From Isoetes taiwanensis (lineage: Eukaryota > Streptophyta > Lycopodiopsida > Isoetales > Isoetaceae), in NCBI GenBank assembly GCA_021234155.1, contig JAJEKV010000226.1, positions 124,001-188,000 of the forward strand: a stretch of 64,000 bases of DNA. The letters are read 5' to 3'. Positions within the stretch are counted from its first letter, which is position 1; every line of letters starts with the position of its first letter. Below the pieces are notes generated by a model, which worked only from the letters and a program-made list of their open reading frames with translations, ran no database searches and was not told the origin of the DNA. The position numbers and the translations under genes were made by a program. Positions 16,639 through 44,800 of the stretch are shown here, one piece after another.

Positions 16639-17034
16639 ATGTGTGTAGGTGCAAACAAGGACATTGATGAACTTAGTAAATCACTCTTTACCCCCTTCAT
16701 AGATGTTGATTCTGATGGCTCGATTGATGAGCAAAAGGAAATTGATAATGCATTAGAGAATGTTTTAGACGTTGAGAATGGCCCATTTTTTGATGCATTG
16801 GAGATGGCGAAGCATGCAGGAAGGAACATCTTAGAGCTGCAAGTTTCATTAAAAAATGTTTATGATATTCTTGAGGAATGCTTCACTGCTATGGACGATG
16901 AACGCGTGAAAGTCTCCACACGTGAGCGGCGCGGTGTTCGTGGTGAGATGAACCGTGTTCGTGCTCTTTTAGTACGAAACCTTAAAGGATTGACTATGCT
17001 CGCTCGAGAGCACCCACAGACCATGGGTGCATAG
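16639..17034 (+). CDS. helical ORF downstream of the Rep-like gene
   Basis: An intact frame of up to 131 residues follows the Rep-like gene after a 78-bp gap. The first in-frame ATG is at 16,639, but an acceptor TTCATGTGTGTAG just before GTGCAAACAAGG suggests the coding exon really begins at 16,649. The protein is acidic in its first half (DIDELSKSLFTPFIDVDSDG) and basic near the end (RERRGVRGEMNRVRALLV), with predicted helices and no known motif. Its position, strand and intactness suggest it is the last exon of the same element or a second gene of it. No function can be assigned. Confidence 0.45.
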   Translation: MCVGANKDIDELSKSLFTPFIDVDSDGSIDEQKEIDNALENVLDVENGPFFDALEMAKHAGRNILELQVSLKNVYDILEECFTAMDDERVKVSTRERRGVRGEMNRVRALLVRNLKGLTMLAREHPQTMGA

Positions 17035-17237
17035 AGTTGTGTCTAGAACATTGTGCTCTTGGTGTTTTGCTATTCAGAGAGTGGCCAACTAAATAAAAGA
17101 TGTTTTGTATGCTTCCATATGACAGCTTTGTATGTCTCCAAATAATTTAAAGCACATACATTTGTGCATGAGCAAATTGCATTTTAAGTTGTCTCTTATG
17201 CTTTATGTTTTATGATTTTCTTATATGAAATTATTTA

Positions 17238-17350
17238 ATTAAAAAAAAAAAAAAAACACCAAAAAAAAAATAAACACACCAAAAAAAATTTTTATACACA
17301 CCAAAAAAAATTTTTACATTAAATTTTTATCTTTTTTTTTTTTTTTTTTC
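17238..17350. repeat. low-complexity A/T tract with ACACACCAAAAAAAA units
   Basis: Poly(A), repeated (ACACC)AAAAAAAA(TTTTT) units and an 18-T run follow the accessory ORF. It may be the 3' end of that element or simple-sequence expansion. Confidence 0.7.
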
Positions 17351-17369
17351 AAAAGTTTGTTTGGGTGTG

Positions 17370-17525
17370 TTATGGCAGTTCTTGTGTTTTCTGTTAGGAA
17401 AAAAATCAAAAAGCACGATGTGTACACCATTATATGAACAGTCTTACTAATGGTTCATATGCTAGACATCGTGTTTTTTGATTTTTTTTTTGCTTCCCAG
17501 CAAAAAAACACAAGATCTGCCATAA
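17370..17525. repeat. 156-bp foldback (MITE-like) inverted repeat
   Basis: The left arm starts TTATGGCAGTTCTTGTGTTTT and contains AAAATCAAAAAGCACGATGT and TATGAAC. The right arm carries the reverse complement (ACATCGTG, TTTTTTGATTTTTTTT, AACACAAGATCTGCCATAA). Nearly the whole element pairs as one imperfect hairpin. I see no convincing target duplication (left flank GGGTGTG, right flank TAACGC). Confidence 0.8.
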
Positions 17526-17928
17526 TAACGCTAGCCCTAGAACAATCTGTCAAGTTCTAGAATGCTTATTAGCATTATACCTTATTAGATTGTTTACCAC
17601 TTCCATCACATTCTTTACTTTGAAGAGTTAGAGTTAGAGTGCATCTACTATTGGAACATTGTAGTGTAAGTCATTGACAACTATTTTGAGCAGCAAAAAG
17701 ATTAGGCTTAAGAAGCAACATATGCTTTATCCTAGGTTCCATCTATAAACAAAAGGAACTAGTACTTACTGCAATCCCGTTACAGCAGTTGTATAACATG
17801 CTCTAGCAGATACGTATATGCATGTGCGCACTCTTGTTTGCAGCAGCTGCATATGATGCTCCATTCTTTGCATTGCTATTATGTATTCGTAGTCTACGAT
17901 TAGGAGCAGTTTACGATTTATAAAAAAA

Positions 17929-20580
17929 AAAAAAATCCAGTCCACACTAGCCTAAGCAGAAGCCTACTAGCCATGACATCTACTGTGGTCAATCCCACAT
18001 GTAGTATTATCAGCCCATACTTGGATAAAAACCCATGATGGCACTTACAATCTTAGGACCGCAAATATTAAATCATTAGCAAACATCAATATTAATAACA
18101 TCTTAGAACGATAATCTTAGAACAGTAGTTCAATTTATAAACCCACTTTATTGGTTTAATACACTACTAAGCAAGCCATTACACAAATAAGCCCGCCTAA
18201 CCCAAGTGGGATAAAGAAGTCTCCTTCCAAAACATTACATCATTCATAATGTATGCTTTATGTGCATCAGTTAATACTAAAACCATATTATTTTCATCGA
18301 GTGGAGATCAACTACATATAACTTAAACTGAATTATTTATTACAATCTTTGTATTCATCTTAGTTTACAAGATACGCTATATGAATAGTTGCAGTTAGAT
18401 ACAAGTCTAATGCAAACTCTCATTAATATAGTATTCAAGATACAACCCTAAGGTCCGTTATTTTCGCATAACACCCCATCGGATATATCCCCAGTGCTTA
18501 TGTTTAGCAGAAAAAGCTTTTACTGTAATAATTCCATTTATTGTGAGCAAGAAGTCTTGTGCTAAAAAGGACAAAGATATTTCAAGAATCGCCCATACTA
18601 CAAAGATAGTATTTTCAAATCCATGAGTATAATTACACATGCCATAGATATCAGCCCCATATTAATCTTTGTTCACGCCATGATTATCAAAGGTAGAAAC
18701 TAAGTATAGATACAAGGCCATAACGTAGGCTCTGGAAGCTACAGCCAGGTTATAAGGAAACCAGGGTAACACCCAAGTATGCTATCAAATAAAGTGGAAT
18801 GCTAATATGCACAAGAATCTGATCACATCCGTTTTCAAAATTTGCAAAGATATTATCATCATGAGTTTGTGATACAACTGCCATAGAAATCTGATACATA
18901 TTAATGTTGCTTCAAGCATTAAAACTCAGAGGCAGAACTATAGTATTAGTTTTAGGCCGATATATAAGGCCCAAGTGGCTATAAGAAAGCCCAGCAAATT
19001 TACTACCATATAGTATAGAAGTAAACAGCATGCAAAAAGATTCCCTGTCATGTTTTTCATGAGATACACAAGTATTATTACAAAAGTCAGTGCATCTTCC
19101 CTTTCATTTCCCTTAGTTGTGGCAGGACCAAAAGAGCTGATTCCATAAGATAATCCACAAGCCAGCGCTCCAATTTTTCTTTAGCCAGATATGAACTTGA
19201 AAGCAAAAAAAGCAACAATAGGAGGAGAAACGGGTACCTGCAGCCAACCAACACAACATTAGCAAAACTATGGTAATGAGTGAGGGGCCAAAAGGTACAT
19301 TAGGTTTCTCAGCTCTTCGCTGATCACCTATTGTGGCCTTTTTGCCCCCAATTTCATATTTAGCTAAATAATTATACCAACAAGATACAAGCATACTTTT
19401 CCACTAAGACTTTCAACTCAATGTATGTAGTACAACAGACTTAGAATCCTTAGTTTATTGTAGACAAAGAGCACTATTATAGAACCCCGGATGCATCGGG
19501 AGGCGGTGATTCAAAGATCGCGATTACACCATTTAGCACATGGCCAAAGTATTTAATCTTATAGTATCCATTTGCTGGAAGACATTCTTAGCATGCAGGA
19601 AAGACATGTAGATCTCATGCAAAGATGGAAAATTAGTCCAGATCAATCAAACCTGAACGTCCTCCAATTCATACTCGAGTCATCCTCAAGGTGATCGGAA
19701 CATTATTCCTGAAGCCGGAGCCACCGCTTGCATGCCCATCCACATTTGATTTGCTCATATATCCTTGCCTGTGAGCTCCAGATCCATTATTATTGACCCA
19801 AGGGCGCTTCGATCCAGTATTCCTTCCTGAATCCATGCCAACTTCCTCAGCTTTATAGATTTCAAGGCAATCACTGAATTCAGTAGCAAGCTAAGCCTCC
19901 TCTAGACGAATTGCTTCATCTGAACTAACAGGGTAGCCGTCTGAATCATAATCCTTATGATATTCGGCCATACACTCCTTGAGATAAACATACTTACGGC
20001 ATTTATTCCCACCCATATCCCCTCAGACTATTTAGGTAAAATGTGCCAAAGATACGCAAGCATGCCCAAGGCTTTAAAGGCCATAGAAAACTAGACCCCT
20101 AAACTGAAGTAATCGTGCCAAATCCGGCCACTATCTTATGTAGAACCATAGGCAAGGTGGCTGTCTAAATACAAGTGTCAGATGAACTAACCTTATACTT
20201 CAGTTTGTGTACCCAGAATAGATCTTTCACACAGTTATCGATCCATTCCAAACACTAGTTCCTAGCCTTGTATTAGAGGATCAACCTCGGCTCGTGCTAA
20301 ACGCCAGTATGGTGCCGGAATATGGTACCCTAAAGCCTGGCAGTGGTAGATAATACCAAGTACACGAAAGTCTCATATTTTCAGCTGCATTTTGATGATC
20401 ATATTAAGCATATAATAAACAATAAGAAAATGGAATAAGTTATATAATGTCGTCAAACAAATAAACTAACATTGGATACTCTAGTCACCATTGTGAGTAT
20501 ACCCCTTAGTCCCAAATACTACAACCATCAGTGATCATGGAGTAATATTTTGCTATTAAACATTTATCAGTTAAGGATAA
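17929..20580 (-). repeat. direct repeat 1 (3' pseudo-LTR candidate)
   Basis: This 2,652-bp sequence is nearly identical to 24,683-27,640 apart from a 318-bp insertion there (310-bp element plus duplicated target) and clustered small differences. It carries a minus-strand 93-codon frame (19,113-19,394) that is also open in the other copy, and a 116-codon small-protein frame (19,669-20,016) with one internal stop here. Differences from repeat 2 fall in short patches separated by hundreds of identical bases. Confidence 0.95.
19669..20016 (-). pseudogene. small acidic ORF in repeat 1, one stop
   Basis: The frame starts ATG at 20,016 with GGNKCRKYVYLKECMAEYHK and continues through DYDSDGYPVSSDEAIRLEEA; a TAG then replaces the Trp codon found in repeat 2. 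Past the stop it runs in one frame through a Gly/Asn-rich part to a TGA at 19,669. In repeat 2 the Trp is intact but a frameshift splits the frame, so the ancestral reading was probably a single protein of about 115 residues. Lying at the 5' side of the core in repeat 2, it could be a 5' exon or leader protein of the element. Confidence 0.4.
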
Positions 20581-20766
20581 ACATAAAAAAAACCTACCTC
20601 CTACCGTAGGGTAGGTGTGGCCCAAATCGAATGGCTGCGTATGTATAGGGAGGGTGGACCCCTACCAACACAGCTGGGGCCCATCCCTTACCCTATTAGA
20701 TACAATACAACCCAAAACTTTGAAACAAAGAACATATGCATGAGGTAAAACATAGCAGATAGTACC
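20581..20766. other. 3' untranslated spacer of the RT gene
   Basis: This is 186 bp between the RT stop codon and direct repeat 1. It contains the local palindrome CTACCGTAGGGTAG-like sequence and a C/G-rich block. It is unique within the window. Confidence 0.5.
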
Positions 20767-22842
20767 TTACGAAGTCGAAGCAATTTGTTCAAGTAGAACA
20801 TATTTGTCGAATCTGAGACCAGGGAAAAGGCTATTACTTATGTAATTAATGACTTTCTTCTCCAAGCCAAGGATATCAAATCCATTGTTGGCAAAGCTTC
20901 TGATCAGTCCTCTAATGTCTGCTGCAGCCTTAATCGGGCATGAATTAACATACATATAAGGCAGCAGCTGGGAAACAATTACGTTTCTGGCCTGCAGGTA
21001 GGGCCTGCAGCTATCAGCATGCACGAACTTTAGTGCTTGAAAGGGCAATATATCCCTTTTGTCATACCTGGTGGTTTTGTAGATCCCAGTGAAATTATTG
21101 ATGATCTCAATGGATAAATTCAAAAAATTAACCTTGTATCCCTGTGGGTTTTCCAGTCCATACCTCGTGTGAAACACTGTTTCTTCCTTAATTCCAAGTT
21201 TGCTCATGTCATAAATGCTGGCGTTTTCACCTGAATCCCCAAGTGTTGCCCTCAAGAATTCTCTAAATATGGGGCTGTTTATGGCCAAAAGGTCATCTAT
21301 ATACCTAAATACGTATTTAAACATAGCAATTTCCTTGTATCTACCATGAGATGCGAGGTTTTTTATAAAGCATACCTCAAACCACGCCAGGTACAAGTTG
21401 CACCAGTTTGGGCTGCATGCGAATCCCATCGGAATGCAGCACACCTGTTGCCAAACTTTGTCACCCATTGCTACAAAGCAGTTGGACAGAAGCCAATGAT
21501 TAGCCTTGACAAAATCATGTCGTTCCATTTTAAACCAGCATTTGCCCTTTGGATCAGTCTTAAACCATTTGATAGTATACCCATTAGGTACCTGTTTAAT
21601 CCATAATTCATTGTTATGGTGTAAACTTTTCTGCCACCTCCAAACAGCATTGATTACCATTTCAATGGCCTTGCAAATGCCCTTATCTGCCAGCAGGGGG
21701 ATATTTTCATAACATCGAGTTATATCTGCCACAAAGATATCATGGATTTTAGGAGGCAGATTAATAACAACATCATACACAGAGTTAATCACCCAGCTCG
21801 TGATAACCTTCCCAGGAATTAAGGTGTGGATATTAGCACTCAACATCTTGGCAATATCAGGCCAATGGACTAGAATGTCATTCAGCCCCGCTGTGATAAT
21901 CTGTGAAATTTCAGTGTAGATGGTGTTGTGGGCGTTGGTGATCCATCTATAGTCGAGCTTGTGTGCCTTAAACACACCAAGTAAGTATGGTAGTTTTTCA
22001 GATTCGAAGCCAATATACCCAATCAGCCCTTGTATATCCTCCTTAATTCTAACTTGGATTTCTTGACGTGGGCTGTGTATGATCAGAAAATCATGGCTAT
22101 TAAGTCTTTGCAGGGCCATGTCCCTAACATGCTTGGGACAGATAAAAGCCGGATTATTGGTGGCTTTGTCAACTCCAGAAATATAGAAGTTAGTGGCAAG
22201 CCATTCAATATTCCTGATAACACTTGAGTCCATTAATGCAAATTTTTTTATACCCTCATTTTTTATGGCAATCTGAATTCTTCCTGTGGCAATATCAGTG
22301 ACTCTCATTGTGAAGGCACTTTTTTCTCCCTCTTCAATATCAGGGTAGGAATATTTATGCGCCTCAAAGAAGAGGTCACAAACCTTTACAATCTCGTCTT
22401 GAAATTCACCCATGACCAACACCCTATCAGGGATATGATTGAGGCCTTTTTTAAGCATGTTTCTAAGCATTTTGTTTCTCACCACTGTCATTTTAGTGGT
22501 GCGAACGTGTCCGATTTTAGGATCAACAAAAGCTGAAATATTGGGATTCATGCAAGGGCAGGGAACATCAGCCTCTTGTGCAAATATGTAGAAAGGTTTA
22601 TAGAAGATATCACAAAGATTTTCACAATACTTCCATCCAAACATGGTATTGCTCATCATTTCCAGTCCAAACTCACCAAAACACTCGCTGGCCACTTTGT
22701 GCAAAATCCTAGGCAGGCAGATTTGGTCTTGCACTTTAGATAAAAAGGTGCAATGTATGATTTTCAGTTTGCATTTAGGTCTCTCATCAACCAAGGACAG
22801 TCTCCCCTGACAATTCTTTGCAATCGTCTTGGACAGCTGCAA
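20767..22842 (-). CDS. reverse transcriptase, Penelope-like/Naiad-like type
   Basis: This open frame of 691 codons has all core RT motifs, counting the TTG at 22,842 as residue 1. DKATNNPAFICPKHV (225-239) matches the DKxxNN block of this RT group. YLLGVFKAHKLDYRW (about 286-300) corresponds to the PxxHK region. Motif A is ADITRCYENIPL, with Asp373; motif B is IPMGFACSPNWCNLYL (470-485); motif C is RYIDDLLAIN, with Asp516 and Asp517. A thumb follows, with YDKRDILPF and RNVIVSQLLPYMYV. The YIDD box together with YDKRD and ISQL-type blocks resembles RTs I know from invertebrate and protist Penelope-like/Naiad relatives, not plant LINE, Copia or Gypsy enzymes. No ATG opens the frame: a TAA precedes TTG, and the acceptor TATATTGCAG sits exactly there, so translation probably enters by splicing from upstream. 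The next ATG lies near residue 62. No endonuclease domain is seen. The catalytic residues are intact. Confidence 0.8.
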   Translation of the reverse strand: MQLSKTIAKNCQGRLSLVDERPKCKLKIIHCTFLSKVQDQICLPRILHKVASECFGEFGLEMMSNTMFGWKYCENLCDIFYKPFYIFAQEADVPCPCMNPNISAFVDPKIGHVRTTKMTVVRNKMLRNMLKKGLNHIPDRVLVMGEFQDEIVKVCDLFFEAHKYSYPDIEEGEKSAFTMRVTDIATGRIQIAIKNEGIKKFALMDSSVIRNIEWLATNFYISGVDKATNNPAFICPKHVRDMALQRLNSHDFLIIHSPRQEIQVRIKEDIQGLIGYIGFESEKLPYLLGVFKAHKLDYRWITNAHNTIYTEISQIITAGLNDILVHWPDIAKMLSANIHTLIPGKVITSWVINSVYDVVINLPPKIHDIFVADITRCYENIPLLADKGICKAIEMVINAVWRWQKSLHHNNELWIKQVPNGYTIKWFKTDPKGKCWFKMERHDFVKANHWLLSNCFVAMGDKVWQQVCCIPMGFACSPNWCNLYLAWFEVCFIKNLASHGRYKEIAMFKYVFRYIDDLLAINSPIFREFLRATLGDSGENASIYDMSKLGIKEETVFHTRYGLENPQGYKVNFLNLSIEIINNFTGIYKTTRYDKRDILPFQALKFVHADSCRPYLQARNVIVSQLLPYMYVNSCPIKAAADIRGLIRSFANNGFDILGLEKKVINYISNSLFPGLRFDKYVLLEQIASTS

Positions 22843-23055
22843 TATAGATACGAATTAAATCTAGCAACCTACAAGAACACGTGAACTTCTGGCTTTACCA
22901 CACCGAATGGTAGTGGATTTAACAATGCCGAGTGGCCTTAGTTCATTATTTTTTAGTGGATTTATCATAAAGACAAACACAATCAATCCAAAGTAGCATA
23001 TTTATCATAAGAAGTACCCAACGAGTGTAAGAGTATTAAATAAGTCAAAACTTAC
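22837..23055 (-). other. candidate 219-nt intron between companion ORF and RT
   Basis: On the minus strand the donor CTCTTG/GTAAGTTTT ends the upstream sequence at 23,056, and the acceptor TATATTGCAG/CTGTCC opens the RT at 22,836. Both are strong plant splice sites, and the intervening DNA is AT-rich with stops in all frames. The acceptor is in phase 0 with the RT. The upstream frame in phase is the one reading CWTTRHNLL, whereas the longer companion frame stops a few codons earlier at a TAA (23,063-23,065). Joining the two proteins would therefore need one more base change, or they are separate. Confidence 0.55.
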
Positions 23056-23062
23056 CAAGAGA

Positions 23063-24554
23063 TTATGCCGTGTAGTCCAGCACAACTCCACCGGAAGCAG
23101 CCTTCTCTCGAGCAGCCATATTTTTATTCTTGGTGACCGAATGTCCAGCAGGGATTTGCGTACCAATGCATTCGATTGATGTACTGTCAGAACCGTCAGG
23201 TATATCAATCACAGGTCTAGTAGTGATTCTTGGAGGCCTTGTAACAGTGCTCAGCCTGCTGCCAGAAGGGCTGGCAGCACTTTTGTTGGCAGATCTGCTT
23301 GTATTGTTGCTAACTGCATAACCAATATCTTTCAGGAATGACACTGGTTTGATGGTCTTCTCGCATATCTCCACCATTTTACATTTGGTCAAGTTCAACT
23401 TCAAGTCTGACCATGGATCAACTGCGAGTCTTGTGGTCATATAGATAAGTATCTCCCGTAGCTCAAGGTATGATATAAATGCCATGATACTAGTCTTCAG
23501 AGGTCCTTTGAGAAAACCCCTAAATGCCACCATCTGTGCAGCAGTAGACATGTTAGGATAAAGAACATCTAAATTGTTCAACATGTACCAAACAGCATGA
23601 TCCAGCCAAGTCATCACAAATGCATTTGATGTAAGGGCAAAGCGTTCTCCACAATCTTTTCAGGTAGAAATCCCCCCTAGAGATGTTAGGGTATGCCATA
23701 TGGCCCTTTTGGCTGACATACATAAATTTGCTCTTGGTGCATGTTTTATCGAAGAAGCGAGTGTCAATATTGCACCTGATCTCCTCTTTCTTCACAAATT
23801 TTTCCATTCTCAAAGCAGCATTGCAGGCAGCGGATACTTGGTCCTTAGTAAGGTCACCTAGTAGTATCCATGTATCTTTGCTAATGGGAGCCAGGGCGCC
23901 AAAATTCTTGGTTCTCCATATCCCTTGATTGCAGATTAGTGCATGGCTTTCCACAAGTCGTTCTGGGATAATAGGGAAGTTTAAGCAGTTGTTCAATGTA
24001 AACTCAAAATCATCCATGCTGCCACTCCCATCAGGATCATTGTTGGCCATAAGATTGGCCTTGTCCTGCTCAGTTAAAAGTAATTCAAAAGGATCATCCT
24101 CATCAGTTGCATTGCAGTACTGTGCTACTGCAGGTTTGTCATTAATGTTATTTGCCTTTTCCAAAGCCTTAAGCCCAACAAAATACTGGCCCTTGCATTT
24201 GTCCTCCTCAGCAGTCCATTGGTAAATCATGCCGGGCAGGTTATTGTACAGATCGTCTATGACTTTGACGATCAAGTCAACGTCACCACCGGCCTTGTTG
24301 ATGACGGGGAATGCTCTAATCCATTGGTTAAAGCCAAGATGCAGGATGGCTGAACACTGATCAGATCCCCTGGCCATTTCCTTCTGCAGTATATATTCAT
24401 GAGCCTTGATATCCTTGATGCAGCATAGCACATTTTGTATAGCATAGCTTGGCACTTCAGATTTGAAGTAACCATACCCGATAGCTGCAAGCTCCTTGTT
24501 CCATACGGGTAGCACTGTTTCAAAGGTTGTTTCTTTTTCCTGTACGCAGTGCAT
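23063..24554 (-). CDS. companion ORF of the RT element, one frameshift
   Basis: A long frame runs from the ATG at 24,554 (MHCVQEKETTF) to a stop at 23,553. It overlaps a second frame that continues to a TAA at 23,063. The natural reading switches at a run of four bases, TTTT on the plus strand at 23,657-23,660: upstream GDFYLK is followed in the other frame by CGERFALTSNAFVMTWLDHA. With that one-base slip the protein would be about 496 residues. It has an acidic patch near the middle (NDPDGSGSMDDFEF), then DTWILLGDLTKDQV, a helical C-terminal half, and a Ser/Thr/Arg-rich stretch (SAASPSGSRLSTVTRPPRI). I recognise no domain: no GIY-YIG, CCHC knuckle, RRM or helicase motif. It is probably the N-terminal part of the element's polyprotein or a separate ORF1. 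The slip could be a sequencing error or decay. An acceptor-like GCGTACAG/G at about 24,545 leaves room for an upstream exon. Confidence 0.55.
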
Positions 24555-24929
24555 AGACAATCAGTACATAGTCATCATAAGTATAAGTCCATTCAGAAAT
24601 GTCAAAAATTGCCTGCTAAAATACTTAATATTTGAGTCCCAGATATTGGTGACCCTCGTAAGACCAGGGAACTGAAATTCCTAAAAAAATCCAGTCCACA
24701 CTAGCCTAAGCAGAAGCCTACTAGCCATGACATCTACTGTGGTCAATCCCACATGTAGTATTATCAGCCCATACTTGGATAAAAACCCATGATGGCACTT
24801 ACAATCTTAGGACCGCAAATATTAAATCATTAGCAAACATCAATATTAATAACATCTTAGAACGATAATCTTAGAACAGTAGTTCAATTTATAAACCCAC
24901 TTTATTGGTTTAATACACTACTAAGCAAG

Positions 24930-25239
24930 CAGTGATGACTTTATCATCCTCTAGCTGCTTCTAAACTATAGAAATGATGGCGAATTTTTTCTATTTTTCC
25001 AACATTTTTATAGAAACGAATTTAGTAGAATTAGATGTTTTACCATAAAATTGAGGTTTTTACTGTAAAATGTTCATTAATTTGGCGAATTTACTATAAT
25101 TGGGATGCAATATTATCAAATTTTGGCGATTTTATATTGTTCTTTAGTGTACGCATCCTAGTAAACCATCGAATTCAGATTTTAAAAATTGGTAAAATAT
25201 AGCAACTTTACGAAGTTTCACACCTTAAAGTCATCACTG
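24930..25239. mobile_element. hAT-type MITE with 8-bp target duplication
   Basis: The 310-bp insertion is bounded by perfect 14-bp terminal inverted repeats, CAGTGATGACTTTA and TAAAGTCATCACTG. The 8-bp direct repeat TAAGCAAG flanks it at 24,922-24,929 and 25,240-25,247. Direct repeat 1 has a single uninterrupted TAAGCAAG at the homologous site, which proves insertion after the repeats were duplicated. An 8-bp duplication and CAG-starting termini are characteristic of the hAT superfamily. It has no coding capacity and is AT-rich inside, so it is non-autonomous. Confidence 0.93.
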
Positions 25240-26712
25240 TAAGCAAGCCATTACACAAATAAGCCCGCCTAACCCAAGTGGGATAAAGAAGTCTCCTTCC
25301 AAAACATTACATCATTCATAATGTATGCTTTATGTGCATCAGTTAATACTAAAACCATATTATTTTCATCGAGTGGAGATCAACTACATATAACTTAAAC
25401 TGAATTATTTATTACAATCTTTGTATTCATCTTAGTTTACAAGATACGCTATATGAATAGTTGCAGTTAGATACAAGTCTAATGCAAACTCTCATTAATA
25501 TAGTATTCAAGATACAACCCTAAGGTCCGTTATTTTCGCATAACACCCCATCGGATATATCCCCAGTGCTTATGTTTAGCAGAAAAAGCTTTTACTGTAA
25601 TAATTCCATTTATTGTGAGCAGTAAGTCTTGTGCTAAAAAGGACAGCATATTTCAGTAATACGCCCATACTACAGCATAGTATTTTACAGTCATGAGTAT
25701 AATTACACATGCCATAGATATCAGCCCCATATTAATGCTGTTCACGCCATGATTATCAAAGGTAGAAACTAAGTATAGATACAAGGCCATAACGTAGGCT
25801 CTGGAAGCTACAGCCAGGTTATAAGGAAACCAGGGTAACACCCAAGTATGCTATCAAATAAAGTGGAATGCTAATATGCACAAGAATACAGTCTGTCACG
25901 TTTTTCAAAATTTGCAGTATATTACTGTCATGAGTTTGTGATACAACTGCCATAGAAATCTGATACATATTAATGTTGCTTCAAGCATTAAAACTCAGAG
26001 GCAGAACTATAGTATTAGTTTTAGGCCGATATATAAGGCCCAAGTGGCTATAAGAAAACCCAGCAAATTTACTACCATATAGTATAGAAGTAAACAGCAT
26101 GCAAAAAGATTCCCTGTCATGTTTTTCATGAGATACACAAGTATTATTACAAAAGTCAGTGCATCTTCCCTTTCATTTCCCTTAGTTGTGGCAGGACCAA
26201 AAGAGCTGATTCCATAAGATAATCCACAAGCCAGCGCTCCAATTTTTCTTTAGCCAGATATGAACTTGAAAGCAAAAAAAGCAACAATAGGAGGAGAAAC
26301 GGGTACCTGCAGCCAACCAACACAACATTAGCAAAACTATGGTAATGAGTGAGGGGCCAAAAGGTACATTAGGTTTCTCAGCTCTTCGCTGAACACCTAT
26401 TGTGGCCTTTTTGCCCCCAATTTCATATTTAGCTAAATAATTATACCAACAAGATACAAGCATACTTTTCCACTAAGACTTTCAACTCAATGTATGTAGT
26501 ACAACAGACTTAGAATCCTTAGTTTATTGTAGACAAAGAGCACTATTATAGAACCCCTGGATGCATCAGAGCAGGATTCAGCATCAGCATTACACCATTT
26601 AGCACATGGCCAAAGTATTTAATCTTATAGTATCCATTTGCTGGAAGACATTCTTAGCATGCAGGAAAGACATGTAGATCTCATGCAAAGATGGAAAATT
26701 AGTCCAGATCAA

Positions 26713-27086
26713 TCAAACCTGAACGTCCTCCAATTCATACTCAGAGTCATCCTCTTGCGTATCAGGAACATTATTCCTGAAGCTGGAGCCAGTCTGTCTA
26801 TGCCCATCCACATTTGATTTGCTCATATATCCTTGCCTGTGAGCTCCAGATCCATTATTATTGACCCAATTATTATTGATCCAAGTATTCCTTCCCGAAT
26901 CCATGCCAACTTCCCTCGACTTTTATAGATTTCAAGGCAATCACTGAATTCAGTAGCAAGCCAAGCCTCCTCTAGACGAATTGCTTCATCTGAACTAACA
27001 GGGTAGCCGTCTGAATCATAATCCTTATGATATTCGGCCATACACTCCTTGAGATAAACATACTTACGGCATTTATTCCCACCCAT
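26713..27086 (-). pseudogene. small acidic ORF in repeat 2, frameshifted
   Basis: This is the counterpart of the repeat-1 frame. It starts ATG with MGGNKCRKYVYLKECMAEYH and keeps Trp in EEAWLATEFSD, but after CLEIYK a small indel shifts the frame. The downstream Gly/Asn/Ser-rich part (from MDSGRNTWINNNWVNNNG) continues in another frame to 26,713. Each copy breaks at a different point. The element may therefore once have encoded a small protein here. Confidence 0.4.
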
Positions 27087-27640
27087 ATCCCTGTACTATT
27101 TAGGTAAAATGTGCCAGCATACAGCAAGCATGCCCAGTGCTTAAAGGCCATAGAAAACTAGACCCCTAAACTGAAGTAATCGTGCCAAATCCGGCCACTA
27201 TCTTATGTAGAACCATAGGCAAGGTGGCTGTCTAAATACAAGTGTCAGACGAACTAACCTTATACTGCAGTTTGTGTACCCAGAATAGATCTTTCACACA
27301 GTTATCGATCCATTCCAAACACTAGTTCCTAGCCTTGTATTAGAGGATCAACCTCTCGTAAACGCCAAGATGGTTTTAATATGGTACCCTAAAGCCCTGG
27401 CAGTGGTAGATAATACCAAGTACACGAAAGTCTCATATTTTCAGCTGCATTTTGATGATCATATTAAGCATATAATAAACAATAAGAAAATGGAATAAGT
27501 TATATAATGTCGTCAAACAAATAAACTAACATTGGATACTCTAGTCACCATTGTGAGTATACCCCTTAGTCCCAAATACTACAACCATCAGTGATCATGG
27601 AGTAATATTTTGCTATTAAACATTTATCAGTTAAGGATAA

Positions 27641-29454
27641 AAAAAAAAAAAAAAAAAAAAAAGTGCCTTCGTATGTTTGTACAGTTCCTAAGGGCATCGT
27701 TCTTGATTTTCATGCAGGTTTATGAACTAATTGATGATGTCGATTTGTCTTCTCGCCTCACTATCAATTTGTGCAACACGTTCTAAGGTTGATAGGCATA
27801 ACATCAAACCTATGTTATTCCACACATAAGGTTACAATAAAAGAATGTCATCCAACTTTGTAATGTTAAATGTATTCCAGCCGAGGACATCTGCATGTCC
27901 TACATTGATACACTCAAGTTGGAAAGTCACACAAAATAAAGTCTACACCCGAGTCCCTCACATGCAAATTAGCGTATCACAAAATGGCTCTTTGCTTACT
28001 ATGTCAGTTTGAGAAATAAGAAATAGTTTTACAAAATGTAGCTCCAAAGAATAATCCTTCTTGAGTTGCATGAGAGTGTTATTTCATTTTTATTTTTTAT
28101 TTTTATTTTCTTCTTTTTAGCACATCCGCCCTATAGGGCCTGCAGCCTTTTCTGCAATTCTAACCTATCCACATATCATCTCCACATTAATAAAACCACA
28201 TCAGCAAAATCTGATGTGTTCTAATATTCTCCATTAGATCTTTAGTTTTGCAGATCTAGGGCCAGAAAAATTAGAAAAGAACCAGAAATTAGCATTATGC
28301 CAAAGGACGTCGCCAAAGCATGCATGCTTGCCTCCCAGTGAGCTTCTATTTCCATTTATTTACTGCGTGCATGGATTGCTCGGTTGTGGTATCAGTAGTA
28401 CTTACTTGTTCCTTGCTTACCATTCATGCGGATGGATCTTCTTCATCTCGATCTCTTCCAAATCTAGCAGATAAGATAGCCATCAATCACATCTGGCCCA
28501 ATGCAAAATTGGATAGCCATCATGTCTGGCCAGTGCAAATTTGAGATTTGATAAAATGGGGCATTGCCATCTATAGAAAACGGTTTCCATGAATCTTCTA
28601 CTCTGCATTTTTTTTTTTTGTTAACAAGCTAGAGTTTCAATGTTTCAAAGAACATAGAGGCTTTGGGAATAGTTTGAAACATGCAAAAAACCTGTAGTCT
28701 CTGATCCCATTGTATTCATCTCGAAAGGTACAAATCCTTTACACATTAGCTATCCATACTAGCCATACAATGTCTTGCTTACTTTTTCTCTCAACTGCTA
28801 ATTGCTAACATCAGAAGCAAAGCATAAACATTAATAATTTTGCTTTGGAAATTCTGTAGGTGCAAAAGAGCTTTATATGTCTGTGCATTTACAGGTAAGG
28901 CCATTCTCAATATCTTATATCTAATGTGATTTTCAATTTCACTAATACAAGACTCCTCAGATACTCACTTCCAAAAGACATCTTATTTTTCTTCTCTCTT
29001 GCTTGTAATTGGTATCTGCAGTTTATTGAATGTTGAGTGCTAATAAAGTATCCTTGTCCAAGTTTCAGTTGCCTCCACATGCATCGCTACAGGCTTTGAA
29101 TAGAATAAAGAGCCTGTTCATGGTTCTTGCTACATGCTTTTCATGGAAATTAGCATCCAAGGTGTGCATATTATGTACGTACCTCTTGACTTCCATGTAA
29201 TCAAGAAAAATGTTGAGATTATGCTGCCATTCTTGTCAAAGCTCACTTCCTCTTCTGTGCCTTGAGACGAATCTGCTATTGCTTGAATAACTCTTGAATA
29301 AATATGCGGCAATTTTATTCTTAGCTATTTTGCTGCCATTGGTGAGCAAGTTTAGGATTCTTGATATCAGTTTGTTTTTCAAATCCCTTTTTTACCTTAA
29401 AATTGTCGCATACTCCACATAAGAAATAAAAGTGAAATAAATGTCGTCATATGT
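27641..29454. other. intergenic; includes one dispersed repeat
   Basis: No gene is supported. A poly(A) run follows the RT element, and family D4 copy 1 lies at 28,114-28,214. The rest is unremarkable AT-rich sequence. Confidence 0.5.
28114..28214. repeat. dispersed repeat family D4, copy 1
   Basis: TTTTTAGCACATCCGCCC, then a GGGCCTGCAGCCTTTTC-like block, CCTATCCAC and CAAAATCTGAT match 59,736-59,823 at roughly 75-80% by eye. Confidence 0.7.
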
Positions 29455-29600: not shown

Positions 29601-29755
29601 TTTCTTAATATTCTGATAGGTCTTCAGTATTCTGATTCTGATAGGTCATCCTAGCTCAATTTCAGCTTAATATTCTGATAGGTCTTCAGTCATCCTAGCT
29701 CAATTTCAGATTTTAAGCTTGCTTAACCTATCATATTACAGTTTAGACCTATCAT

Positions 29756-30766
29756 GCTTGGTCAACTATGGTCCACTACTCACAATATGCGCTAGAAGGC
29801 ATTCTGGAATTTCCAAAAGTGTGCTTGCGAACTACATGAGCAATGGTCAACTATGGTCCACTACGCACAATGTGCGCCAGAAGGCATTCTGGAATTTCCA
29901 AAAGTGTGCTTGTGAACTGCATGAGCAATTGCATTCCTGATGGCAAAACACTTTAGGTTCTATTAGAATTTAAGCTCATAATTACTATATATTCCTAGCT
30001 AACTGCTTATACTATGATGGGGAAAATAATTCTCCCATTATTCGAGGCTCTTGCTTTCTCCAAAACTAAATATCTAGGCTGTTAGTACTACTAGGAAATG
30101 GCTTGTGCTCGTCAACCAAGATCATTGCTCTGATACTATTGTGACGCCCCTTGCTCATATACGATGCCCCACACATATAGAACTAGAGTTCATCCCTCCT
30201 GTCAGTGCAAGCCCGCTAAGACGGGGAAGAATAGATGTGTTATTCATCCCGTCTCCCTCGTGATCTACCTAGTTGCGGAAGTGTAGCTTAAGCCATCACA
30301 TCACATCATGCTTGGTCAACTATGGTCCACTACTCACAATGTGTGCCAGAAGGCATTCTGGAATTTCCAAATGTGTGCTTGCGAACATTACTTTAGGTTC
30401 TATTAGAATTTAAGCTCATAATTACTATATATTCCTAGCTAACTGCTTATACTATGATGAGGAAAATAATTCTCCCATTATTCGAGGCTCTTGCTTTCTC
30501 CAAAACTAAATATCTAGGCTGTTAGTACTACTAGGAAATGGCCAGTGCTCGATCTTGGTCAACCAAGATCATTGCTCTGATACTATTGTGACGTCCCTTG
30601 CTCATATACGATGCCCCGCACATATAGAACTAGAGTTCATCCCTCCTGTCAGTGCAAGCCCGCTAACACGGGGAAGAATAGATGTGTTATTCATCCCGTC
30701 TCCCTCGTGATCTACATAGTTGCGGAAGTGTATAAACATAAGCTTAAGCCATCACATCACATCAAA
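29756..30766. repeat. ~554-bp tandem duplication carrying LTR/PBS sequence
   Basis: Copies begin at 29,756 and 30,310 with GCTTGGTCAACTATGGTCCA and share about 450 bp, including GACGGGGAAGAATAG-like and CTCCCTCGTGATCTAC blocks. The first copy additionally contains an internal direct repeat of about 88 bp (TGGTCAACTATGGTCCACTA...). Each copy contains GCTCTGATACTAT next to TGTGACG. Confidence 0.9.
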
Positions 30767-41871: not shown

Positions 41872-44800
41872 TTGAAGGTGAGCATGTGGAATGCATATGG
41901 TTTAAATCAAGCCAAAATTGCAGCCACTTGGGATGTGTGGGAAAAACGTGATTTAGCTGCTTTTGTTGAGACTTGGGAACATCAGGCCCGCCCATTGCCT
42001 GATCTTCCAGGATTTACACTTATATGTAACTCCTGGAACATGAAGAAGAGCATGGTAGGTCGTGGTTATGGAGGCATAGCAGTTTATGGCAGAAATAACA
42101 TATCACATAATGTCTCGATCTTGAAGACGTATATAAACAAGCAATACGGTGGCTCGGGATCCATGATCTCTTTACGTTTTTGTTATTTTGCACCCGACCA
42201 CAGACTCGTACAATGTTCTAGAAATAGATAAGACAGATATTTTCCAGTAATCGCGAAATGACATACTCATGTACAAAGAATGAAGGAGAAGTCATATTAA
42301 TGGGTGATTTCAATGCAAAGGGTGGGGCACAAGCAAGCTAGTACCTTTGAAAATATAGCTGATATGCGTTTACATGAACTAGAAGAACCAAATTTTATGT
42401 TAGATCTTCGCCCACCGGATCTTAAATGCTTGGTGAAATGCTCTTGGGCAAGTGCACAACTGTAATCTGAAAATTTTAAATGGGATCAGCAAATTTGCTC
42501 TTTCAGATGGTTTTACTTGCTTGAATCATTCAGGGGCCAGTGTAGTTGACTTCTTGTTGGCAAGAAATACCGACATGATTCAGGATTTCAGCTTGAGTAG
42601 AAAATTACATGAATCAGATCATGTCCCACTGCTAATGGATATCAATTTTCGAGGAGAGCGGAAACAAGAGAATTCTTCTTTCCAACCCAGGTTGAAAGTA
42701 GACTACTTATATCATGCCAAATACAAGAGGAAAGTTGAGGAATTGATGGCACATATTGATCCAGATGCGGAATTTCATGATCGTATCTCGGTTCTACGAG
42801 AACATGTTTCAAGCAGCCAGCCAAGTCTTTGGTTGGACAAAGAAACATAAACCAGGGAGACCAAACAATGCATGGTGGGATGTAGATTGCCAAAATGCAA
42901 GAAATTCGCTGCCACCAGGATGTATCAGGAAGCCTAAATGGTATAAATCCCTGATTCGTAATAAGAAGCGAATGTTCTATGAAAACAAAAAGGAAGGCTT
43001 GAAAAGACAGCTTAGGAAGTCTCCAAAGACGTTTTGGAAATGCTTGCAAGGCAAAGTTGATACCCCTGAGCTGAATAACGATGATCTCATTGAGTTAGTG
43101 AGAAACATCTATGAAGTAAATGGAGCAGATAAGATGTCTATTGATACCGTGCAGGCGGTTTTGTTCTCCGAAGAAGATGTTCAAGAAACGTTGGCCTCTC
43201 TTGATAACAATAAAGCTCATGACATGGAAGGGATATGTATAGAGCTATTTAAATGGGGCGGACAACAAACCTTGAGAATTCTAACGAATTTGTTGAACTT
43301 GAGTCTCACTTTGGGACTGCCGGATGCATGGAAAATGAAGCAGGTACATGACCCATCTATAAGTCAGGGGGATAAAAGTCAAGTACAAAACTATAGAACC
43401 ATCTTGATTGGTTCCACTTTCACCAAGCTGATTGGCAGCTTATTGGAAGCAAAAATAAGTTCATGGGCTGATGATAATGACAAAAGATCAAAATTTCAAG
43501 CTGGTTTTAGAAGAGACTATAACACATTAGATCATGCTCGACTCTTAGAGTCCCGATTGAACAAGCAAAGAAGGTGTTTTGTTTTATATGCAGCCTTCAT
43601 AGATTTTACTAAAGCATTTGATACCCCGAGGAAGGGACTTGGAGATAGGATGGCTGATATAGGAGTGCCGAGTACTTGAGATCAGCGATTTGCTCGGTTA
43701 TAATGATGAAGTTTTGGTGAAACCGTCTCTCGTGACTCAATAGCTACTGATCAGAATAACATTGGGGTCCATTGAGGCTGCCCCTTGTCTCCAACCCTAT
43801 TCGGAATTTATATTGATGAGCTGGATGAATGGTTTTCGCTCGTGGTCTTTGTTTGGCACACGACTAGGAGCTTTCTTAGTCCAATTGTTACTTTATGATG
43901 ATATAGTACTTCGGCTAATAAACATTGCATTTTGCAAGAGCATCTAAACATCTTTGGAAAGCTTTGTGTTGAAAAACAAATGAAGGTAAACATTGCGTAA
44001 AACCAAGATCATGATCTTTGGGACTAGGAGCGCACTGCAGCTAATCTACAATGGGCGTGTACTTGAAACAGTAAATTGCTTCAAATATTTAGGAATTGAT
44101 TTCGCTTGCAATTATGGATGGAAGGAATGCATTAGAAGAAGAGTGACAGGGAGGAAAAGCTGCTCTATTCTCCATGTTATCCGGGTGCACGAGCTTGTCC
44201 GAAGATCTGAATATGAAGAAGTTTCTCTTTAAGACGCCGGGTCGAACAGTGACTCAGATGGTTCTCCAATATGGGGTCCAAGTACCTCCGAGAGGCTATG
44301 GAAACAGATCGAATCAGTCCAAAAGTTGTTTATATGCGGGAATTGGGCATTAAAAAAACACCATTCCATATCGGATCATGTTGAAACCGGTCTTTTTCCT
44401 CTTGAGATGGAAGCTGCAGATCAAACTATTAATTTTGTAAATAGAATTTTGAATGGACAAGCGGATGATGTGCTCTCATTTCAAGCCTTATGGGTTTGAA
44501 CATCAAGGGTGGTTTTATGGATGTTAAAGCATGGCTTGGCGTGATGGGGGTCCTTGATGAAAACTGGCTCAAGACAAGGAGGCGGCTAGGCTTGTGTTAG
44601 AACAAATGACATTACAAATGGGCTTTGGGAATTGAGAGGCAGCAGATTGAACCACTATGTTGAAAAGGTAAACCCGAGCATACTCGGTGACCATAGCTAT
44701 CTAACAGGGAATTTGCAAAAGAGGATGAGACAAAGGATAGCAAGATACAGAGTGAGCTCTCATCACTTAGAAATAGAAACGGGCAGATGGAGCAAAATTC

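Follow-up and report, generated by a model that had tools for sequence, protein, structure and literature searches.

The question raised by a stretch of 64,000 nucleotides from Isoetes taiwanensis (GenBank assembly GCA_021234155.1, contig JAJEKV010000226.1, positions 124,001 to 188,000; hereafter the window) was what kind of element carries an intron-bearing reverse transcriptase (RT) gene between long direct repeats. A first-pass annotation had taken it for a possible new Penelope-related element of a vascular plant, apparently without an endonuclease, or for a host-domesticated copy. Our analysis indicated that the window probably holds one copy, with a damaged first open reading frame (ORF1) and an open RT frame, of a large family working like an endonuclease-lacking Penelope-like element (PLE) that is primed on A-tracts. 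The RT and the frames upstream of it lie on the minus strand, as do the element features below, and are enclosed by direct repeats, the upstream (5') one at 24683-27652 and the downstream (3') one at 17929-20592, both set by repeat comparison. The RT frame of 691 aa (20767-22842) had been read correctly and its RYIDD motif is intact; the frame, Pfam and profile comparison placed the RT exon at 20767-22836. The near identity of the flanking repeats also held, with a 248-bp block 100% identical and a block of about 2.43 kb 95.6% identical. No TG..CA was present at the repeat ends; the repeats start with T7-8 and end with T7, and the internal boundaries are alike (window, L001, L002 and L008).

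Exact pattern searches of the genome returned 457 matches for the RT motif WCNLYLAWFE (reversed control 0) and 2352 for a repeat motif (control 0). The repeat motif was about five times as frequent as the RT motif, a rough ratio given that the motifs differ in conservation. Because the RT and repeat structure is multi-copy and the controls gave 0, it is not due to chance. In the RT search 64 of 4764 candidates were scored, and 56 of these 64 had no in-frame stop, with identities from 100 to 52%. Ten RT copies, namely the window copy and nine fetched copies (among loci L001 to L010), were aligned with a mean column identity of 75%. YN00 could estimate the ratio of nonsynonymous to synonymous substitutions for 4 of 45 pairs, at 0.08-0.14, the remaining pairs being saturated, and NG86 gave 0.04-0.14 in six pairs; the RT is under purifying selection among copies. 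Complete repeat pairs were 99.2% (L001), 98.1% (L002), 97.1% (L005), 95.8% (L008) and 95.6% (window) identical, and the other fetched copies had partial or tandem repeats. L009 on contig C1032 is arranged head-to-tail with a 4.5-kb repeat of 95.9% identity, and L005 on C1058 runs on into a second internal region with 91% identity. Among 100 of the 457 RT-motif places listed, seven same-strand neighbours were 6.5-7.7 kb apart, such unit-length neighbours lying on C43, C73, C457, C556, C687 and C907 (twice). Separately, the 29-nt motif sequence was identical at ten RT places (nine on the plus and one on the minus strand) lying within 0.4 Mb at C907:41.30-41.70 Mb, which is perhaps a recently duplicated or centromere-like region.

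The outer ends of the copies were then compared. In the window copy the outer 5' junction is a T-run of 24 (27639-27662), composed of target and repeat start, and the outer 3' junction is a T-run of 14 (17922-17935). All 12 readable outer 5' ends (window, L001, L002, L004, L005, L007, L008, L043, L044, L049, L050 and L058) and all 12 readable outer 3' ends (window, L001, L002, L003, L008, L009, L042, L045, L046, L047, L051 and L057) lay on T-runs, so that the search for further copies and their insertion ends proposed in the first-pass annotation yielded a family with 24 of 24 readable ends of one kind. The T-runs at these ends were 7 to 41 long; runs of T7 or more make up 0.43% of plus-strand positions in the window. 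Loci L042 to L051 had been picked because the repeat match reached or neared its end, L048 being an internal boundary and uncounted. Left out were L006, L009, L010 and L057 from the 5' count, and from the 3' count L006 and L010 as unread, L058, and L005, in which another internal region comes after the second repeat. L009, L042 and L047 break off at the 3' end within the repeat, L009 at an internal TTTTTC, and a T-run still adjoins. Because these truncated 3' ends still abut T-runs, the T-run must be, at least partly, a feature of the target.

Searching with the two flanks of the window copy joined together revealed unoccupied paralogues on C1032 and C919 (77% identity), which are near-identical to each other and were treated as one comparison. 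The unoccupied site reads ...CACATTTATTTATCCACTGTAAACTG... compared with ...CAC-(element)-ATAAATCGTAAACTG... in the window, and no non-T duplication was found in this single comparison. A nearer paralogue, on C179, also has no element, the site itself being lost. Of the nine fetched copies, seven are over 0.9 Mb away from a contig end (scaffolds, not chromosomes), and no tandem TTTAGGG was found in the window. The high copy number together with the unoccupied paralogous sites identifies a mobile family and not a duplicated host gene; a single-copy locus with repeats from a segmental duplication, which had been named as a possible outcome, is contradicted by the 457 RT-motif matches and the same paralogues.

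PLEs encode a telomerase-like RT (PMC11167929; PMC3846280), and PLE RTs and telomerase have a common ancestor (PMC3846280). Pfam RVT_1 matched all ten RT members, weakly (best 1.6e-6), the RT profile had no match in the PDB, and no RT relatives were found in viral contigs and plasmids. The RT was compared by hhalign with TERT (one sequence), long interspersed nuclear element (LINE), Gypsy and maturase references, all from the same genome and with no PLE included, and the profile scores were 30.2, 19.8, 18.9 and 16.1, respectively. At motif B' the TERT alignment placed 'GDKVWQQVCCIPMGFACSPNWCNLYLAWFE' with 'GGQFFHQVTGIAQGSVVSSLLCSLYYGYIE'. Over motifs A, B and C, TERT scored 75 versus 2 to 27 for eight other references, and the means over five copies were 79.8 for TERT versus 6.2 to 32.2 for the others. 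A motif block tree of 49 columns with hand-placed motifs, in which motif B of Gypsy and maturase may be mis-set, stands second to the profile scores and only supports them. Among the four families tested the RT thus appears nearest to the plant's own telomerase, and not to LINE, Gypsy or maturase; a place inside LINE or LTR clades was what the first-pass annotation had regarded as fatal to its proposal. The PLE placement is indirect, as no PLE reference was compared.

No Pfam family of protease, integrase, RNase H or GIY-YIG was found in ten RT and seven ORF1 members, in a scan that did not extend to exon 1 and had a limit of E 10, most matches above about 0.1 being dropped by the tool. This agrees with the lack of integrase, protease and RNase H reported before, and the hidden Markov model check of both frames for GIY-YIG suggested at that time gave the same negative answer. 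Elsewhere in the genome, GIY-YIG gave 121 matches among 150 scored candidates. These genes were considered as a PLE reference or an endonuclease in trans and rejected, the five loci inspected containing no RT by eye (frames of at least 110 aa). At L033 and L036 the GIY-YIG frame adjoins a helicase-like frame (Pif1-like by eye) and belongs to a repeated family, another mobile element. Of the 29 maturase matches, 19 were on C163, a 195-kb contig that is probably mitochondrial.

The long companion frame of the first-pass annotation stands for the family and fails for the window copy. The frames 23553-24560 and 23063-23617 are one ORF1, split in the window by a short frame-shifting change, with an exon at 23063-24540 according to frames, alignment and splice sites; in 7 of the nine other fetched copies (not L005 and L009) ORF1 is a single open frame of 509-531 aa. 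Its alignment is conserved, with invariant Cys residues (CPYxKCxC..C). The sole match of ORF1 in a PDB profile search, a Copia capsid protein at E 0.37, was not significant, and the predicted local distance difference test scores of AlphaFold were 45.8 for RT and 37.3 for ORF1, the ORF1 model being unusable. The gene is intron-bearing as described, a GT..AG intron (GTAAG..TTGCAG, 22837-23055) separating ORF1 from RT. On sequence evidence the ORF1 donor and RT acceptor are at the same place in nine of ten copies (L009 has no visible donor), and the donor lies 7 nt past the ORF1 stop codon in seven copies, the window included, 6 nt in L008 and 1 nt in L010.

A further predicted exon, exon 1, was placed by frames and splice sites at 26719-27086 within the 5' repeat. 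It starts with ATG GGT GGG AAT, encodes an acidic product beginning MGGNKC..., and extends to a donor CAG/GTTTG; in the window copy its frame is not fully open, a 90-aa frame stopping ahead of the donor. Five of ten copies (window, L001, L002, L005 and L006) matched the phase-0 donor CAG/GT, and frame ends suggest the same donor in L003, L007, L009 and L010, with no clear reading in L008. The ORF1 acceptor is in phase 0 in seven of eight copies compared (L008 again gave no clear reading) and the RT acceptor in all ten. Splicing from the post-ORF1 donor would place RT behind a stop codon, and out of frame too except in L008, and the first in-frame ATG of the RT exon in the window copy is at codon 62, downstream of conserved residues. 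Because the splice-site phases imply it, two mRNAs are proposed, exon 1-ORF1 and exon 1-RT, in which RT would be made by direct joining of exon 1 and RT exon.

The best-conserved noncoding part of the repeat folds into a hairpin of about 67 nt. In the window, its 3' repeat copy (19283-19349) was located by alignment and folding and its 5' repeat copy (26352-26418) by pattern match, with ends from the 3'-copy offset. The hairpin profile matched all ten loci L001 to L010 and 19 of 20 block loci fetched (none in L029); 13 of these 20 had been chosen for matching the block, and of the seven chosen by RT position six have the hairpin. Part of it is missing in L016. For covariation, 22 of 30 hairpin sequences were aligned, the window included (omitted: L004, L011, L013, L014, L016, L017, L020 and L021). 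Paired cells amounted to 85.4% versus 81.3 in shuffled alignments, the covariation score was 0.159 versus 0.094, and cells changed on both sides numbered 28 versus 10.0, the latter two values being reached in 0 of 500 shuffles. Related sequences can exceed shuffles without structure; the slide control agrees with structure, as slid structures scored 0.021-0.118 with 31-52% of cells pairing. Single-sequence folds gave the hairpin for most of the 22, L026 and L030 folding otherwise at full length. In four copies (window, L002, L006 and L007) an open frame also runs through the block, and length changes in the hairpin of L008, L024 and L025 appear to speak against coding. On its 3' side follow a branch-point-like GCTAA and then, in most sequences, GGCTGCAG, resembling a 3' splice site. 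Our guess is that the hairpin is recognised by the RT. An alternative RNAalifold pairing in a longer block, GUACCU/AGGUAC, was rejected, as it breaks in one to two sequences. Hammerhead and other known RNA families were likewise rejected, Rfam yielding three chance-level matches up to E 5 over window positions 17000-29000.

Two loci examined on account of their short repeat spacing, L057 and L058, are arrays of units without RT or ORF1. Each unit consists of repeat, T8, 0.6-0.85 kb of internal sequence with the conserved internal end, T7 and repeat, and the outer ends are T19 (L057) and T18 (L058). In the window the corresponding internal end ..CTACGGTAGGAGGTAGG (20593-20614) stands directly ahead of the T8 (20585-20592) at the boundary with the 3' repeat. 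Of this end, GGAGGTAGG is unchanged in 9 of 10 full copies and in both derivatives, L010 having a variant. The other boundary, between 5' repeat and internal region (24650-24689), reads T7, AGGAATTTCAG and then a short possible hairpin paired by eye. The gene-less derivatives would mark the sequences needed in cis, and since both keep the hairpin and the conserved internal ends, these are likely binding signals.

The following course is proposed for the family. Transcription would start in the upstream repeat. Exon 1 would be joined in phase 0 to ORF1 or directly to the RT exon, and two proteins would result. The template would be the unspliced RNA, which would explain why introns persist. At a break or nick, the RT would extend an A-tract from its 3' end, starting on U-runs of the RNA, usually on the U7 at the repeat end and sometimes at other places. 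Head-to-tail templates and internal starts could yield repeat-internal-repeat copies, tandem arrays and T-runs at the outer edges, with the hairpin and the conserved internal ends as likely binding signals. More tentatively, and with rather less than even confidence, the family may be a dispersed lineage flanked by long terminal repeats (LTRs) with no endonuclease of its own, whose telomerase-like RT primes directly on A-tract 3' ends genome-wide, recognises its RNA by the hairpin of the repeat, which gene-less satellites share, and is made from a spliced mRNA separate from ORF1.

Several points weigh against this account. Priming at breaks is hard to reconcile with hundreds of dispersed copies, and some copies are near contig ends, the window copy lying about 0.14 Mb from the contig start and L007 and L010 0.13 and 0.25 Mb from contig ends. 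T7-8 is part of the repeat ends themselves, which makes the T-run partly intrinsic, a target duplication would be masked inside it, and the 3' repeat of L007, outside the count, breaks off without a T-run there. The RVT_1 match of the window copy (E 0.0054) is below the curated cut-off, an NCBIfam group II RT model matched six of ten members (best E 0.0032), the maturase references are degenerate, and the hhalign probability for the single TERT sequence was 5%, weak in absolute terms; the place of the RT among PLEs is thus indirect. L007 has an ATG at the RT exon start. In the hairpin, eight doubly changed pairs versus 4.7 were reached in 8 of 500 shuffles, and further pair types (15 versus 15.4) showed no excess.

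It is somewhat unlikely, though far from negligible, that the element is PLE-like with a hidden endonuclease, with ORF1 as a diverged or novel nuclease nicking T/A-tracts. The distance of seven of nine fetched copies from contig ends, awkward for pure break-priming, the conserved ORF1 with its invariant Cys residues and the element ends on T-runs would suit such a nuclease, but none of the seven ORF1 members matched a Pfam nuclease family and the only PDB profile match was the capsid protein, the AlphaFold model being unusable for judging a nuclease fold. That the RT is a deep lineage of its own, outside both PLE and LTR elements and PLE-like by convergence, is unlikely: the missing PDB match, the weak RVT_1 match and the missing viral-contig or plasmid relatives would be in its favour, but the RT was nearest TERT among the families tested, and pseudo-LTRs, tandem arrays and a coding start in the repeat match descriptions of PLEs (PMC3846280; PMC11167929).

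Mobilisation in trans by a LINE endonuclease of L1 type seems improbable. LINE-type elements are present in the genome (zf-RVT matched 150 of 150 scored among 14280 candidates, and a LINE-type frame was seen at three fetched loci), and L1-type endonucleases prefer T-rich sites. However, the T-runs here are on the element's sense strand at the 3' end, the opposite of the orientation in poly(A)-primed L1 insertion, and the one unoccupied-site comparison lacked a non-T duplication. A domesticated host gene between segmental duplications, to which the open RT frame and purifying selection among copies could have pointed, is practically untenable in the face of hundreds of copies, repeats around other copies and unoccupied sites.

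The 5' repeat of the window is interrupted by a 309-bp insert (24931-25239, no strand assigned), which is foreign to the element and has 13-bp inverted ends AGTGATGACTTTA and a 9-bp duplication; we take it to be probably a Mutator-type miniature inverted-repeat transposable element. Between the repeats (18168-20592 versus 25240-27652) 136 differing columns group into 22 clusters, and in many of these CTG-like words in one repeat face CTTTG-like words in the other, which looks like systematic base-calling error; the window copy was left undated for this reason, and ages estimated from repeat differences in this assembly may be inflated. Elsewhere in the window, direct repeats of about 85 and 450 bp were seen at 29751-30764, and a fragment at 42756-43679 (plus strand) resembles a LINE-type RT by eye.

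The family makes it possible to ask how endonuclease-lacking, EN(-), elements could spread away from chromosome ends. If the tentative dispersed lineage is real, it would add a third lifestyle to those of the telomere-bound EN(-) PLEs and the endonuclease-bearing, EN(+), PLEs. With its hundreds of diverse copies that have open RT frames, its defined cis sequences and its simple T/A-tract target, the family makes tract-primed telomerase-like reverse transcription directly testable. LTR elements, rich in Gypsy, dominate the published description of the Isoetes genome (PMC8566536), and these results suggest a further large retroelement class in it. By title and abstract no PLE in Isoetes was found in the literature, and the available parts of two Isoetes genome papers name none. 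As a new PLE in a plant the element is half new, as EN(-) PLEs are already listed for Selaginella moellendorffii and the conifers Pinus taeda and Picea abies (PMC9033089); a PLE-like retroelement of what is probably a vascular plant, with pseudo-LTRs, introns and no endonuclease detected, was borne out. New are the dispersed copies, the T-run ends, the covarying hairpin, the gene-less derivatives and the splice phases implying an exon 1-RT mRNA.

PLEs form tandem copies with pseudo-LTRs at AT-rich targets by internally started reverse transcription (PMC11167929), their pseudo-LTR may hold the ORF start, and intron-containing genes can be dispersed by them (PMC3846280). Pseudo-LTRs and head-to-tail copies are likewise present here. 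Introns are kept in the mobile copies of this family too, and such retention is a mark of the PLE class. EN(-) PLEs are described as sitting mostly at chromosome ends, with added telomeric repeats (PMC3846280). The present family resembles them (Athena of bdelloids; the elements of Selaginella, Pinus and Picea) in its apparently telomerase-like RT and in having no GIY-YIG detected by sequence, but differs in the lack of telomeric repeats in the window, the distance of most copies from contig ends and the T-run junctions. Coprina is a further EN(-) PLE. With the EN(+) elements Penelope and Poseidon it shares tandem or partial-tandem copies, pseudo-LTRs, an AT-rich target, the internal start of reverse transcription proposed here and a coding start in the repeat, whereas their C-terminal GIY-YIG and hammerhead ribozyme were not found here (hammerhead: window copy). 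Neptune is another of the EN(+) PLEs marked by a GIY-YIG domain. Chlamys and Naiad have pseudo-LTRs, a simple-repeat bias, a CxC motif and no hammerhead, and occur in spike mosses. The particular link to them drawn in the first-pass annotation was not supported, their endonuclease being N-terminal and no N-terminal GIY-YIG being detected in ORF1, in a comparison that included no Naiad or Chlamys sequence. The long near-identical terminal repeats recall LTR retrotransposons, but no TG..CA, protease, integrase or RNase H was detected and the RT is not Gypsy-like. Foamy viruses make their RT from its own spliced mRNA, to which the apparent RT mRNA here is similar. Set among PLEs by description and not by tree, the family would best be viewed as a variant of EN(-) PLE-like elements, with which the pseudo-LTRs, arrays, repeat exon and introns fit.

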